DNA of 64,000 bases from Verrucomicrobiaceae bacterium. Its GTDB lineage: Bacteria > Verrucomicrobiota > Verrucomicrobiia > Verrucomicrobiales > Verrucomicrobiaceae. The stretch lies in assembly GCA_027486585.1 (NCBI GenBank), contig JAIXOU010000118.1:1-64000 (forward strand). The letters run 5' to 3'. Shown piece after piece: positions 1 through 48,232 of this stretch. The position numbers were made by a program, and so were the translations under genes. How positions within the stretch are numbered: the stretch's first letter is position 1; the number at the start of each line of letters is the position of its first letter. Below the pieces are notes generated by a model. The model did not search any database, was not told the DNA's origin, and saw only the letters and a list, made by a program, of their open reading frames with translations.

Positions 1-291
1 GAAATGTCGGGAGAAATGTCGGGAGAAATGTCGGGAGAAATGTCGGGAGAAATGTCGGGAGAAATGTCGGGAGAAATGTCGGGAGAAATGTCGGGAGAAA
101 TGTTGAGTATTTGGGAGAGAAAGGCGCTGCAATTAATCAAGACAAAACCAGACATTACGATCCCTGAAATGGCCAAGAGACTGAAGCGCACTGAGCGCAC
201 GGTGGAGCGGCTGCTCAATAAGCTGAAGGCTGATGAAATCATCGGGCGGGTAGGACCTCGAAAAGGCGGCTACTGGGAGGTTCTGAAGTAA
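1..291 (+). CDS. C-terminal end of a winged-helix regulator with MSGE tandem repeats (partial)
   Basis: The frame is open to the left edge and starts inside a repeat, so this is probably the tail of a longer gene; the first ATG at 4 is a repeat codon, not a convincing start. Eight exact MSGE copies are followed by a winged-helix domain of about 60 residues (ALQLIKTKPDITIPEMAKRL, then a recognition helix with RTERTVERLLNKL and a wing ending GGYWEVLK). This layout, a short in-frame repeat just before a C-terminal winged helix, is what I recall for COG2865/AlbA_2 (Schlafen-like) ATP-binding regulators. That family name is inference, because the AlbA_2 domain would lie outside the window. The domain probably binds DNA or RNA. 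The next gene starts 7 bases after the stop. Confidence 0.7.
   Translation, partial: EMSGEMSGEMSGEMSGEMSGEMSGEMSGEMSGEMLSIWERKALQLIKTKPDITIPEMAKRLKRTERTVERLLNKLKADEIIGRVGPRKGGYWEVLK
4..102 (+). repeat. 12-bp coding tandem repeat, eight perfect copies
   Basis: The unit ATGTCGGGAGAA is repeated exactly eight times from 4 to 99 and a further ATG begins at 100. Position 1-3 is GAA, the end of another unit, so the array continues to the left. Each unit encodes Met-Ser-Gly-Glu. Because 12 is a multiple of three, slippage would change linker length without breaking the frame. Confidence 0.97.
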
Positions 292-2311: not shown

Positions 2312-2914
2312 ATGCTTGATCCGCTCCAACTCCTCAGCGCTTATTGCGAAGGTGCCTTTCCGATGGGGGAAGAGGATGGGTCGGTATCTTGGTTTCGACC
2401 ACCTTACCGTGGCATTTTGCCCGTTCAGGAGTTTCATGTGCCTGCACGTTTCCAGCGATATTTGAAATCACATCCCTTTGAGGTGCGCTGGAATACCGCT
2501 TTTGGCGACGTGATGCGCGGTTGCGCCGACCGAGAGGAGACTTGGATCACCGATGCGATTCTAGATACCTACCAGGAGCTGCATAGTCTTGGCTTTGCCC
2601 ACAGCGCTGAAGTCTGGCGTGGGGGAAAGTTAGTCGGCGGTGTTTACGGAGTGGCTATCGGTGGCGCGTTTTTTGGAGAAAGCATGTTTAGTCGTGAAAC
2701 TCAGGCTTCGAAAGTGGCTCTCACGCATCTGCAATGGCGGCTGAAAGAGCGTGGATTCATTCTGCATGACACGCAGTGGACCACGTCGCATTTGGCCAGC
2801 TTTGGCGGCCATGAGATCCCTTGTGCGCAATACTTGGAGATCTTGAATCAGGCCATCACGCTGCCAGCCCGCTTTGATGATCGGCCGCTCGGTGCATCGA
2901 TCTTGTTCCGATAA
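2312..2914 (+). CDS. aat: leucyl/phenylalanyl-tRNA--protein transferase
   Basis: A 200-residue enzyme that adds Leu or Phe from aminoacyl-tRNA to N-terminal Lys/Arg of proteins, marking them for the ClpS/ClpAP N-degron route. Family hallmarks are LLSAYCEGAFPMGE near the N terminus, WFRPPYRGILP, the GGVYGVAIGGAFFGESMFS core and the FILHDTQWTTSHLASFGG segment. I chose the ATG at 2312, which gives the usual N terminus; a TTG at 2285 would add nine residues and overlap the previous gene. It is convergent with hrpB, with 11 bases between the stops. Confidence 0.93.
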   Translation: MLDPLQLLSAYCEGAFPMGEEDGSVSWFRPPYRGILPVQEFHVPARFQRYLKSHPFEVRWNTAFGDVMRGCADREETWITDAILDTYQELHSLGFAHSAEVWRGGKLVGGVYGVAIGGAFFGESMFSRETQASKVALTHLQWRLKERGFILHDTQWTTSHLASFGGHEIPCAQYLEILNQAITLPARFDDRPLGASILFR

Positions 2915-2925
2915 AAGCAGCGTTT

Positions 2926-5484
2926 TTAACGCCACTCATGGCGTGGATAACGTCCGCGTAATTGAGTCCTAACAGCAGGGTAACTCTCGCGCCAAAAGCG
3001 TCCAAGATCACTGGTGGTCTGGATCGGGCGCTGAGCTGGGGAAAGCAGATGAACAGTGACGGTGATGCGGCCTCCAGCCACTTTCGGATTCTCATTCACA
3101 TCGTAGAGCTGCTGTAGCACCACGCTGACACTTGGTGGCTGTTTTTCATCATAGACGATGCGGGCCGTCTTACCGTTTTTCAGATTCAGTCGCTCTGGCG
3201 CGTAGCGATCTAGAAGATCCCGCTGGGCATGGCTAAGCCACTGATGCAGGGCAGGGAAGACATCTTTATCCTTCAGTTGGCGGTAAGCGGTGGCTCCATG
3301 GCAAACTTGCTCGATGATGATTCGGCGATCCTCTTCACCAATGGCGGGGATCTCGATCTCGGGCATCCATCTTGAGAGGCAATTGACGCGTGTGATCCAT
3401 TGCTCCACCCGCTCATTCCAGAGCGTGAGTTGCAGACGTCCGGCCACGACTTCATCGGCTAAAAGAGTGGCGGCAGTGCCTTCATCGGGTTCGCCTTTCT
3501 CTCGACTGCTGAGCACCAGGCTGCGGAAGCGTACTTCTTCTAGATTCATCACGCGGCGATTGATGGCATCATACTGCGCACGCTTTGCCACGGTGAAATC
3601 GGCAGGGAAAAGCTCACGCAACCATTCTTCTTCGACGCGTGTGACGAGATTCATGTGAACGGTTAGCGCTTTTCCCTGCACCTCCGTGATCTCTGACGCG
3701 ATCAGCAATCGCGGGGCTTTGATGTGTGCGTCCTTGCCCAGGTGTCCGGTGTAGCCACCCGCAACGCGGTAAATGCGGCTGCCACTGCTGGTCTCCACGC
3801 CAAGGTGATCACTGAAGGCGGCTAACAATGTTTTCGCCAAAGCCTCAGGTTCTGCGACTTCATCATTCACTGTTAAGCCAGCGCGCTGAGCTAGGCGGAG
3901 AAACTGATCATAGCTGCGGCCAGCTTCCCGTGAAGCCATGGCATGAACATTGAGAGGTACGCAGGCCTGTGGATCAAAGTTCAGCGCATGAGCGCGGATG
4001 AAGGCGCGCAGCAGAGCTTGAAATTCACTGATGTCATGAGCCTCCCAAAATTCTTCATTTTTGAAGGAAGAACTGTTGCGCCCCACCATGAGAATTTCCC
4101 GTCCCTGAGCTAGCGCAGCGCAGAGAGCGGCTTCACGCACACAGCCATTGTCAGAGGCGGCTAGCAGCATCCTGGCAAAGCGCGGATGCGTCGGGAAGGC
4201 TGACATTTTCATGCCTATAGCGGTGAGCTTTGCCTCATCACTGGAAATAGCGCCGAGATCACGCAGCAGGCTTTCTGCGCGCTTCAAGGCGGCTTCGGCA
4301 GGTCGCTCGAACCAATCAATTTTTAGTCGTGCTTTGTCAGAAGCTACATGCAGAGCTAAAACGGCTTCACTAAGCTCTAGACGCTGGATTTCTGGCAGTT
4401 CGCTTTCCGCGCGGTGCATCTGATCACGCTCAGCCCAGAGTCGTACGGCGATGCCGGGACCCAGACGTCCGGCGCGGCCAGCCCGCTGCTCGGCACTGGC
4501 TCGGCTGATCTTTTGTACCGTGAGGGTATTGATGCCGCGACGCGGATCATAGCTGGCGATTCTTGCCTGGCCTGCATCCACGACGGCGCGAACGCCTTCG
4601 ATCGTGAGGGAAGTCTCTGCCACATTGGTGCTGACAATGATCTTGGCCTGTTCTCCAGGCGTGACCGCGGCATCCTGATCCTGAGGTGTCATTTCACCAT
4701 GAAGGGACACAATACGCCGTCCTTTGCTACAGCTGCGGCTTTGCAGTGCCGTGATGGTTTTACGGATCTCAAAGGTTCCTGGCATGAAGACTAAAATATC
4801 ACCCGTGCTGCCCAGCTCGGAGGTGAGCGCTTCGCAGGCACGTGCAGTCTGATCCCAAATCGGTTCGATCTCATTCGTGCGGGCATTGCGGATAGGGGCC
4901 TGATAACGTATCTCGACCGGGTAAGTTCGCCCCTCGGATTCGAGAAGCTTCACTGGCTGCATGAAGTCGCCCAAAGGTCCTGGCACGAGGGTCGCTGACA
5001 TGACGATGATTTTTAAATCAGGCCGCCGTGTGCGCTGAAGCGCCAATGCCCAGGCTAAAACGAGATCACCATCCAGATGCCGCTCATGAAATTCATCGAT
5101 CACGATGCAGCCCACTTTGGCCAGTTCGGGGTCCTCCATGAGTTGCCGCAGCATCATGCCTTCCGTCACATAGATGAGCCGCGTTTCACGAGATGTGACA
5201 TTATCAAAACGGACCTGATAACCCACCTCCGCACCCAGGCGAGAATCCCGTTCTCTAGCTACGCGCTGCGCCAACATGCGCGCAGCGATGCGACGTGGCT
5301 GAAGGACGATGCAGCGCTGGCCTTCTTTGAGAATGCCAGAATCCAGCACGAACTGCGGCACCTGCGTGGACTTTCCCGAGCCTGTCGGGGCTTTGACCAG
5401 TAGATTCATCGTCGTTGCTGACGTCAGCATATCAATGACTGAGTCACGAATCTCAAAAATGGGCAATTTGGCAGGGGCTGGCAT
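2926..5484 (-). CDS. hrpB: ATP-dependent helicase HrpB
   Basis: An 852-residue DEAH/RHA-family RNA helicase. Visible motifs are Walker A in KAPTGSGKST (about 31-40), motif II DEFH at 130-133, SATLV, the QRAGRAGR motif VI, and the HrpB-specific C terminus with HLLSPAQRPIQTTSDLGRFW and LRGRYPRHEWR. The ATG at 5484 is preceded by a good AAAGGAA ribosome site. A longer frame would start at 5571, inside the divergent transporter gene, and lacks such support. The length fits E. coli HrpB (about 810-820 residues). The biological role of the family is still poorly defined. Confidence 0.95.
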   Translation of the reverse strand: MPAPAKLPIFEIRDSVIDMLTSATTMNLLVKAPTGSGKSTQVPQFVLDSGILKEGQRCIVLQPRRIAARMLAQRVARERDSRLGAEVGYQVRFDNVTSRETRLIYVTEGMMLRQLMEDPELAKVGCIVIDEFHERHLDGDLVLAWALALQRTRRPDLKIIVMSATLVPGPLGDFMQPVKLLESEGRTYPVEIRYQAPIRNARTNEIEPIWDQTARACEALTSELGSTGDILVFMPGTFEIRKTITALQSRSCSKGRRIVSLHGEMTPQDQDAAVTPGEQAKIIVSTNVAETSLTIEGVRAVVDAGQARIASYDPRRGINTLTVQKISRASAEQRAGRAGRLGPGIAVRLWAERDQMHRAESELPEIQRLELSEAVLALHVASDKARLKIDWFERPAEAALKRAESLLRDLGAISSDEAKLTAIGMKMSAFPTHPRFARMLLAASDNGCVREAALCAALAQGREILMVGRNSSSFKNEEFWEAHDISEFQALLRAFIRAHALNFDPQACVPLNVHAMASREAGRSYDQFLRLAQRAGLTVNDEVAEPEALAKTLLAAFSDHLGVETSSGSRIYRVAGGYTGHLGKDAHIKAPRLLIASEITEVQGKALTVHMNLVTRVEEEWLRELFPADFTVAKRAQYDAINRRVMNLEEVRFRSLVLSSREKGEPDEGTAATLLADEVVAGRLQLTLWNERVEQWITRVNCLSRWMPEIEIPAIGEEDRRIIIEQVCHGATAYRQLKDKDVFPALHQWLSHAQRDLLDRYAPERLNLKNGKTARIVYDEKQPPSVSVVLQQLYDVNENPKVAGGRITVTVHLLSPAQRPIQTTSDLGRFWRESYPAVRTQLRGRYPRHEWR

Positions 5485-46855: not shown

Positions 46856-48232
46856 ATGACTACTAAGCTCGATCCAAAATTCACCGCTCTCCTGACCGAT
46901 ACTGCTCAGAAACTGCAATCCCTAGATGTGCTGCCACGGATTTTGGCGGATGCTGCATCCGACTTATCAGCGGCCAGTCTTGATCTCTGTGAGCGCTTGA
47001 TGTCTTTCAGTGCTCAGTTGAATGCAGCCATGGAAGCGAAGGTCACCTTTGATCTAGCTGAAAAAGCTGCACTCCTTGCTGCCAAAGAACAAGCCGCAGC
47101 AGACAAGGCCGCGGCTATTGCACAGGCTGCCGCTGAGAAGGAAGCCGCGCGAATCGCAGCTGCAGAATTGAAGGCGAAACAGCTCGCTGAAAAAGAAGCG
47201 GCTCGAATTGCCAAAGAGCAGGCCGACGCCGAGAAAGCCGCTGCTAAAGCACAGGCACTGGCTGAGAAGGAGGCTGCGCGAATTGCAGCTGCAGAGGCAA
47301 AAGCCCAAGCGCTTGCAGAAAAGGAAGCTGCTCGAATTGCCAAGGAGCAGGCCGATGCAGAGAAGGCTGCTGCAAAAGCCCAGGCACTTGCTGAGAAGGA
47401 AGCAGCAAAGGTTGCCGCAGAACAGGCCAAGGCCCAAGCTTTAGCTGCGAAGGAAGCCGCCAAAGCACAAGCATTGGCAGAAAAGGAAGCTTTCTTAGCC
47501 GCCGCTGCTGAATTGAAAGCCAAGCAACTGGCCGAAAAAGCTGCCATCATGGCGGCCAAGGAGCAAGCGGCCGCTGAAAAGGCTGCTGCAATTGCTCAGG
47601 CTATCGCCGAAAAAGAAGCTGCTAAGCAGGCTGCGGCTGAGGCTAAGGCCAAAGCCCTTGCTGAGAAAGAAGCTGCCCGCCTCGCCAAAGAACAAGCTGA
47701 CGCCGAAAAAGCCGCAGCTAAGGCCCAAGCTCTAGCTGAAAAAGAAGCTGCCAAGAAAGCCGCTGAGGAAGCCAAAGCATTAGCTCTTGCCGAGAAAGAA
47801 GCTGCCCGAATCGCCAAAGAACAAGCCGATGCCGAAAAAGCTGCGGCAAAAGCCCAAGCTCTCGCCGAACAGCTCGCCGCCAAAGAAGCTTCGGCGGCTG
47901 CTAAAGCTCAAGCTTTGGCGGAGAAAGAAGCCATCAAAGCAGCTGCAGCTGAACTGAAGGCCAAGCAGTTGGCGGAAAAAGAAGCGATCCGGCTCGAAAA
48001 AGAAAGGCAGGCTGCTGAACTTGCGGCAGAAAAAGCGGCCCAAGCGGCCGAGCGTCAAAAGGAGGCTAAAGCCGCCGAAGAAGCCAAGGCTAAACGTGCC
48101 GAAGCCTACGCAAAAGTCGTGGCTGAACACGAAGCCAAAATGCGCGCCCGCCAAGCGGCTGCATCCGCACAACTTGCCGCCGAAAAGGCAGCCCTACTAG
48201 CCGAAGAGAAGAAGCGGGCTGCGAAGAAGTGA
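46856..48232 (+). CDS. Ala/Lys/Glu-rich repetitive coiled-coil protein
   Basis: A 458-residue protein with no signal peptide. A non-repetitive N-terminal domain of about 65 residues (TALLTDTAQKLQSLDVLPRI) precedes about 370 residues of continuous helix built on AEKEAARIAKEQADAEKAAA-like repeats. The core EQADAEKAAAKAQALAE occurs four times, in two pairs each spaced 43 residues, which fits mixed heptads and hendecads (3x7 + 2x11). The C terminus is basic (EEKKRAAKK). The N domain resembles granule-associated phasin-like helices in feel, but I claim no family. TolA-like composition is not evidence for a TolA role. Confidence 0.85.
   Translation: MTTKLDPKFTALLTDTAQKLQSLDVLPRILADAASDLSAASLDLCERLMSFSAQLNAAMEAKVTFDLAEKAALLAAKEQAAADKAAAIAQAAAEKEAARIAAAELKAKQLAEKEAARIAKEQADAEKAAAKAQALAEKEAARIAAAEAKAQALAEKEAARIAKEQADAEKAAAKAQALAEKEAAKVAAEQAKAQALAAKEAAKAQALAEKEAFLAAAAELKAKQLAEKAAIMAAKEQAAAEKAAAIAQAIAEKEAAKQAAAEAKAKALAEKEAARLAKEQADAEKAAAKAQALAEKEAAKKAAEEAKALALAEKEAARIAKEQADAEKAAAKAQALAEQLAAKEASAAAKAQALAEKEAIKAAAAELKAKQLAEKEAIRLEKERQAAELAAEKAAQAAERQKEAKAAEEAKAKRAEAYAKVVAEHEAKMRARQAAASAQLAAEKAALLAEEKKRAAKK
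46898..48232 (+). repeat. 43-residue coiled-coil repeat pairs in the Ala-rich protein
   Basis: The protein-level repeat is regular, yet the DNA copies differ at many third positions (for example Ala as GCC, GCT, GCA in the same slot). The repeats are therefore old and held by selection on the protein. Confidence 0.7.

Follow-up and report, generated by a model that had tools for sequence, protein, structure and literature searches.

A preprint (PMC13174449) on the Swarozyc system reports that proteins with DUF4062 break down NAD+ by hydrolysis and act in defence through abortive infection; the AUX domain of KpSwz is described there as binding the phage portal, and the words "restriction", "linker" and "HATPase" are absent from the main text. 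Proteins of the COG2865/Schlafen kind, such as DIP2311 (3lmm), combine AlbA_2, HATPase_c_4 and a winged helix-turn-helix (wHTH); the available part of PMC7641849 labels COG2865 by similarity to RecG and holds nothing on repeats. In the type I specificity subunits (HsdS) of EcoR124I and EcoR124II, a 12-bp repeat encoding the tetrapeptide TAEL lies between two domains. The available text of PMC3874165 describes these repeats as helical, with a number that is changed by recombination and alters function, and reports domain shuffling. The anticodon nuclease PrrC is a lethal effector linked to a type I restriction system, EcoprrI, and is described as being released when a phage peptide neutralises that system (PMC2610378). 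Similar tails also occur on Fic proteins with a Fic-like_C domain (PF21247; 4rgl).

The gene described here and its family share with Swarozyc a DUF4062 domain with an aligned catalytic-site position, a winged-helix-type C-terminal part and horizontal spread, but they add a COG2865 ATPase and a tetrapeptide array, and the AUX domain of KpSwz is unmatched by sequence (PMC13174449, as available). The middle ATPase region and the C-terminal wHTH are shared with COG2865 proteins, many of which, among those bearing AlbA_2, also have class I-like tails and period-4 linkers; these proteins begin with AlbA_2, whereas the family here begins with DUF4062. With HsdS the family has in common a 12-bp tetrapeptide repeat between two domains, but it is without target recognition domains (Methylase_S gave no match in P0001 or P0002 at E up to 1), and its units are not expected to be helical and vary in sequence from gene to gene (HsdS features from the available text of PMC3874165). 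Fic proteins share class I-like tails and short period-4 linkers and are found in an hsdS-hsdR setting on four plasmids, whereas their effector is Fic and an ATPase domain is not expected. Each of the parts is of a known kind. In the literature searched, no description was found of a self-homogenising four-residue joint that is shared and lies at a repeatedly exchanged sensor; the open-licence PMC literature, as far as searched, yielded no description of these arrays, and searches with repeat strings likewise found no paper.

The window, a stretch of 64,000 nucleotides from a Verrucomicrobiaceae genome, begins at base 1 of contig C103, within an open reading frame (ORF) that is open at the left edge and has its stop at 291. 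A tandem array with a period of 12 bp and 8.6 copies at 100% match spans window positions 1 to 103 on the plus strand (TRF) and encodes an (MSGE)n linker. Eight complete ATGTCGGGAGAA units lie at 4 to 99, in frame with the ORF; TRF, the pattern count and the ORF thus confirm the eight perfect in-frame units of the earlier note. The further units that this note had supposed beyond the edge are present on contig C61, which ends within the same array with seven whole units on the minus strand. Both contig ends align collinearly with locus L043, which comes from a Verrucomicrobiaceae MAG; for C61 the identity is 96.2% across 5,110 bases, and for C103 it is 96.8% across 4,066 bases. The two ends are therefore halves of one gene. 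Its 5' part, of 441 codons, lies on the minus strand of C61 (locus L009, 1325 to 3), and its 3' part, of 96 codons plus the stop, lies at window 1 to 291 on the plus strand. No gene start falls inside the window; the start is a GTG on C61. In the same genome, the 24-base double unit occurs only at this array (seven sites on C103 and six on C61, and 0 for a reversed control pattern). This is also the sole period-12 array with at least four copies that TRF found in 434,229 bases of that genome (total 6.5 million), the rows on C61 and C103 being two halves of one array.

Both contigs break inside the array, so its copy number is not readable from the assembly, which gives at least 8.6 units on one contig end. 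The coincident breaks would also be expected if the array or its count had been made by the assembler. However, relatives carry the same unit on unbroken contigs, with five units in L043 and eight in L044; an artefact is hardly credible, and as an account of the array's existence it is already largely refuted. Two other repeats were seen on these contigs. A second coding repeat of about 15 units of 18 bp (AVVEAP; 92% match) lies at 5024 to 5295 of L009 on C61, within an ORF at 4192 to 5304, and several overlapping 129-bp tandem arrays (77 to 80% match) lie in a Lys/Ala/Glu-rich stretch at window 47080 to 47931.

The gene product is predicted from its sequence to consist of a DUF4062 domain with a TIR-like NADase fold, a COG2865-type ATPase, the (MSGE)n linker and a wHTH, without AlbA_2. 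In the C61 part, Pfam matches DUF4062 (PF13271) at residues 5 to 91 (E 2.4e-19, 69.8 bits against a cut-off of 24.7) and HATPase_c_4 (PF13749) at residues 314 to 395 (E 7.1e-20, 71.3 bits against a cut-off of 26). In the window part, HTH_11 (E 3.5e-6; ORF residues 41 to 86, window 121 to 258, plus strand) and HTH_24 both exceed their cut-offs, which bears out the winged helix that the earlier note had placed after the array; the tail is assigned to class II from its L043 counterpart. The same note had proposed a COG2865/AlbA_2 identity. Its COG2865 half stands for the middle of the protein, by HATPase_c_4 and by a fold match to 3lmm, whereas AlbA_2 is ruled out, with no Pfam match at E up to 1 and DUF4062 in its place at the N-terminus. 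With NCBIfam, the 5' part fell into no family and the wHTH had only matches below cut-off. PADLOC gave no strong model for the protein, and its Specificity_I matches fall within the repeat alone.

A profile of 62 relatives matches three solved sequences, which are the DUF4062 protein KpSwz (10wc), 3lmm in the ATPase part and the Fic protein 4rgl in the tail part. The KpSwz match covers profile positions 2 to 171 (E 3.6e-7) and the DUF4062 part only, with the AUX domain outside it. Glu87 is invariant in 62 of 62 family members and aligns with an alanine of the deposited KpSwz chain, which we take, with an inferred residue offset, to be the site of the E97A construct described in the available text of PMC13174449. 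The model of the L043 protein, built from a 62-row alignment, has confident domains (mean pLDDT 81.6, pTM 0.55), a linker at residues 405 to 433 with pLDDT below 50, and a wHTH with helices at 437 to 448, 454 to 461 and 465 to 477 plus two strands. In fold comparisons, residues 1 to 154 resemble DNPH1, TIR and related folds (Z 12 to 14), and residues 137 to 404 resemble DIP2311 (3lmm; Z 22.4, rmsd 3.6 over 234 residues). COG2865 is annotated as a predicted transcriptional regulator. A putative DNA-binding regulator with a length-tuned linker, the reading of the earlier note, would suit this annotation and the presence of a wHTH domain. It is nevertheless improbable, as the N-terminus is TIR-like with an invariant Glu, unlike the sensor of a usual regulator, and many relatives adjoin restriction genes. 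Because the N-terminus is DUF4062, of the TIR-like NADase family, a phage-defence effector is the likelier assignment.

The array was followed in the best 80 of 261 relatives, which come from many phyla; one of the six search peptides (KTKMSGEM) takes in the array start. Loci were dropped if a contig end truncated them, if their frame was broken or if the anchor motif missed them, leaving 75 for linker periodicity, 72 for the core tree and 77 for restriction linkage. Within this best-80 set, lag-4 residue identity in the 75 linkers is 0.269, compared with 0.082 after shuffling, and identity is raised at lags 4, 8 and 12 only. Perfect lag-4 runs of at least eight are present in 47 of the 75 relatives and in 0 of 126 neighbour proteins, where runs of this length occur once at lag 2 and once at lag 8. 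The 72 family cores (first 395 aa) contain one lag-4 run of at least eight, in what is taken to be a 5'-truncated row. The longest run reaches eight in 49 of these relatives, at lag 4 in 47, at its double in 2 and at lags 2, 3, 5 or 6 in none. Up to rotation, the 47 arrays represent 20 different units, including MSGE, MSGK, TSGK, SSGK, TEGK, TGEV, TGQV, TPEV, TPQV, TPPV, QPES, RLES, KTPV and REET. The period is kept across the family; the unit sequence is not.

At the DNA level, 27 of the 47 arrays are perfect, in a set that was chosen on protein identity, and the period-12 array is below threshold in 10 of the 75 relatives. In 65 arrays chosen frame-blind, neighbouring units differ at 51 of 1032, 73 of 1033 and 81 of 1017 sites in codon positions 1, 2 and 3, the third differing slightly more than the first and second (81/1017 vs 124/2065, p 0.045). 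These almost even differences suggest that the unit residues are weakly constrained, in near-unconstrained sequence, and the array may therefore have no function beyond that of a linker. As neighbouring units differ little, and evenly over the codon positions, array turnover is fast. Strong protein-level selection on the unit sequence is unsupported, the codon positions being nearly equal. The other two frames are stop-free in 54 and 53 of the 65 arrays, counts made without a codon-composition control and from which no claim is drawn; that arrays of different classes are one DNA repeat in shifted frames was considered, by eye.

These features raise the possibility of a neutral by-product: replication slippage would have lengthened a disordered linker that accepts any in-frame insertion, and selection would act on neither its length nor exchange. 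The four-residue period of the array would then be inherited from one ancestral array, since point mutation cannot change a period. The near-identical DNA units, the even spread over codon positions, the disorder predicted for the L043 linker and the free variation of unit residues within a wHTH class are all consistent with such an origin. Slippage alone, however, leaves unexplained why 47 of 49 long runs are at lag 4 and two at its double, with none at lags 2, 3, 5 or 6, and we regard neutrality as possible but doubtful.

Unit number varies among close relatives. The window's gene has at least 8.6 units, compared with 5 in the collinear L043 (96 to 97% DNA identity), and Legionella species with genes 95 to 99% identical have 5 (L061), 4 (L063), 4 (L065) and 3 (L124); the sole same-species pair compared, two L. 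anisa strains, has 4 and 4. The Chlorobiaceae locus L079 has 8 KTPV units, and the orphan tail that matches it in L066 has 5. The count thus differs within the window's gene and L043, within the Legionella set and within L079, the L066 orphan and L080; it is equal within L069/L123, L071/L087 and L091/L101, and L045 and L047 are equal in length. Because the number changes by whole 12-bp steps, the reading frame is kept, and the in-frame length variation that the earlier note anticipated is seen among related genomes. Searches of E. coli with the L058, L178 and L175 genes gave no match, and 29 phage records gave partial matches only, all below 60% identity. The plasmid copy in Legionella hackeliae (L124, 3998 to 5501), with 3 repeat units left, is annotated as two coding sequences.

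Variation in unit number between near-identical genes would also be expected of a measured spacer like the HsdS TAEL repeats, in which unit number sets the distance or rotation of domains and thereby a specificity or threshold, and the 12-bp, tetrapeptide step is that of EcoR124I and EcoR124II (PMC3874165, as available). The TAEL repeats are, however, described there as helical, whereas Gly or Pro occurs in many units here and disorder is predicted for the linker, which argues against a rigid ruler; nor is the unit sequence conserved. A spacer of this kind seems unlikely.

The C-terminal domains form two large classes with subclasses, and the naming was done by eye. In a tree built from the core alone (72 rows of the best 80 of 261, with array and wHTH excluded), class changes 26 times where the minimum is 5, and well-supported branches force at least 11 (Ia), at least 7 (Ib) and at least 4 (II) changes. 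The distribution of class Ib looks random, with 11 changes over 12 rows (254 of 500 shuffles as low). By these sequence comparisons, the wHTH behind the array has been exchanged repeatedly in the family. Tails are also inherited, since class labels are more clustered than shuffled ones (shuffled mean 40.2 changes; 0 of 200 as low as 26). In the scorable arrays the unit type follows the wHTH class (II 13/13, Ia 21/21, Ib 9/9 and Id 7/7), by motif patterns written after seeing the arrays and with one row unclassed and 21 of 72 rows without a scorable array. This tracking of class through many exchanges is not what a neutral by-product would lead one to expect, although common descent of array and wHTH could explain it. 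Remnants of another unit type lie upstream in some linkers (L096, L116, L143 and the Chlorobiaceae loci). In L117 and L120 the first winged helix seems to be followed by another, and the linker is longer and degenerate.

The two Chlorobiaceae loci L066 and L079 have cores that are 97% identical and tails that are unrelated, and their DNA identity ends just within the first array unit. The KTPV tail in use in L079 is a downstream orphan in L066, and the TGEV tail in use in L066 is a downstream orphan in L079; each orphan begins with about 195 bp of the core 3' end, 90 to 98% identical. If the 1,947 bp that separate the first two copies in L066 were deleted, the layout of L079 would result, a relation that implies no direction of change. 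With 85% identity as the lower limit, two loci of the best 80 of 261 showed orphan tails, both from Chlorobiaceae, and the window's genome has none by searches with its own core, its own tail and one class Ib tail. Short repeats that include tail ends lie outside the full gene in L143 (G252; 872 to 957 and 1487 to 1572) and L166 (G206; 1 to 165 and 2080 to 2244) and are possible footprints of exchange; as short C-terminal remnants only, they were left out of the cassette count. In L071 a second DUF4062 gene (about 2804 to 3840), with a class Ic-like tail and no ATPase by eye, lies just upstream, and the same upstream coding stretch, which looks like the end of hsdM, precedes both DUF4062 genes as if tandemly duplicated.

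Similar tails with period-4 linkers are found on AlbA_2 and Fic proteins. Thirty ORFs of at least 250 aa with class I-like tails contain Fic-like_C (30), HATPase_c_4 (22), AlbA_2 (17), Fic (7) and DUF4062 (3); these are 30 of 37 picked by tail similarity and length, and the 30/30 for Fic-like_C is for that reason partly a matter of choice. Directly upstream of the tail, a lag-4 run of at least four is present in 25 of the 37 ORFs and a run at lag 8, its double, in 19, with none at the other lags from 1 to 8. The recurrence of one period before such tails on other effectors again speaks against a neutral by-product, although here too array and wHTH may have descended together. Plasmid genes with such tails lie between hsdS and hsdR in four cases, three of them with further genes between, or else between brxC and pglX.

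Type I restriction genes are frequent neighbours of the family. An HsdM, HsdS or HsdR homologue is present in the flank of 31 of 77 loci from the best 80 of 261, on the same strand in all those listed. Both sides carry hsd genes in 15 loci, with hsdS upstream and hsdR downstream in 11 and hsdM upstream and hsdS downstream in 4, and hsdS ends 0 to 12 bp before the match in 12 loci, distances being counted from the protein match and not from the start codon. Among picked neighbours, PADLOC identified a type I specificity subunit in 11 of the 66 that lie upstream and a restriction subunit in 12 of the 60 that lie downstream; for the upstream neighbours Pfam is in agreement. Because many flanks are short, the restriction-linkage counts are lower bounds. 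This linkage resembles that of PrrC as described in the available text of PMC2610378, whereas the effector chemistry is different, the window's own gene is unlinked, and silencing by the restriction enzyme is a feature of PrrC.

We consider it probable, at roughly 60%, that the gene encodes a modular phage-defence protein in which the array is a flexible, length-variable joint for exchangeable sensors. From the domain content and the comparisons with relatives, we infer the NADase activity, the abortive infection, the sensor role of the wHTH and the benefit of length variation. The N-terminal DUF4062 (TIR-like) domain would hydrolyse NAD+, and the GHKL-type ATPase, which is of the COG2865 kind, would gate this domain or make it oligomerise. 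Infection would be sensed by the C-terminal wHTH, or the wHTH would dock to a partner complex, which in many relatives is perhaps a type I restriction enzyme. Upon infection the wHTH, or the docked restriction complex, would change state, the ATPase would couple this change to DUF4062, NAD+ would be consumed and the cell would stop. The tetrapeptide array would serve as a predicted-disordered joint between ATPase and sensor that lets the sensor move freely, and as the site of sensor-module recombination, with an incoming wHTH bringing its own array; a new sensor could be fitted in this way because the array tolerates junctions of differing length. The earlier note was right on in-frame length variation and the winged helix, wrong on AlbA_2, and too narrow.

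A broader proposal, which we offer tentatively, is that the period-four array might be a dedicated, self-homogenising shuffling joint of an immune receptor. It would swap the wHTH between DUF4062, AlbA_2 and Fic cores, with downstream orphan tails as a reservoir in some genomes and unit number adjusting each junction, and restriction-linked killers would be retargeted like HsdS subunits. If this is right, suicide proteins that are often restriction-linked would share one plan, in which a hypervariable four-residue joint connects a conserved lethal core with an exchangeable sensor. That would account for the ability of one effector to keep up with changing phages. The DUF4062-plus-ATPase architecture is added here to the newly described TIR-like NADases, and the many tail swaps among relatives suggest a way in which a defence of this sort could acquire new targets.

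Against the phage-defence reading, the window's own gene has no restriction genes next to it. Towards C61 it adjoins a VWA-domain protein, identified by Pfam on the collinear L043 neighbour, and downstream it is followed by a membrane-like ORF; PADLOC found nothing at E 1e-10 in the two collinear L043 neighbours. At the same chromosomal site, the congener G003 (L032, about 1628 to 1648) retains only about the first 43 to 49 codons and the last 25 of the gene.
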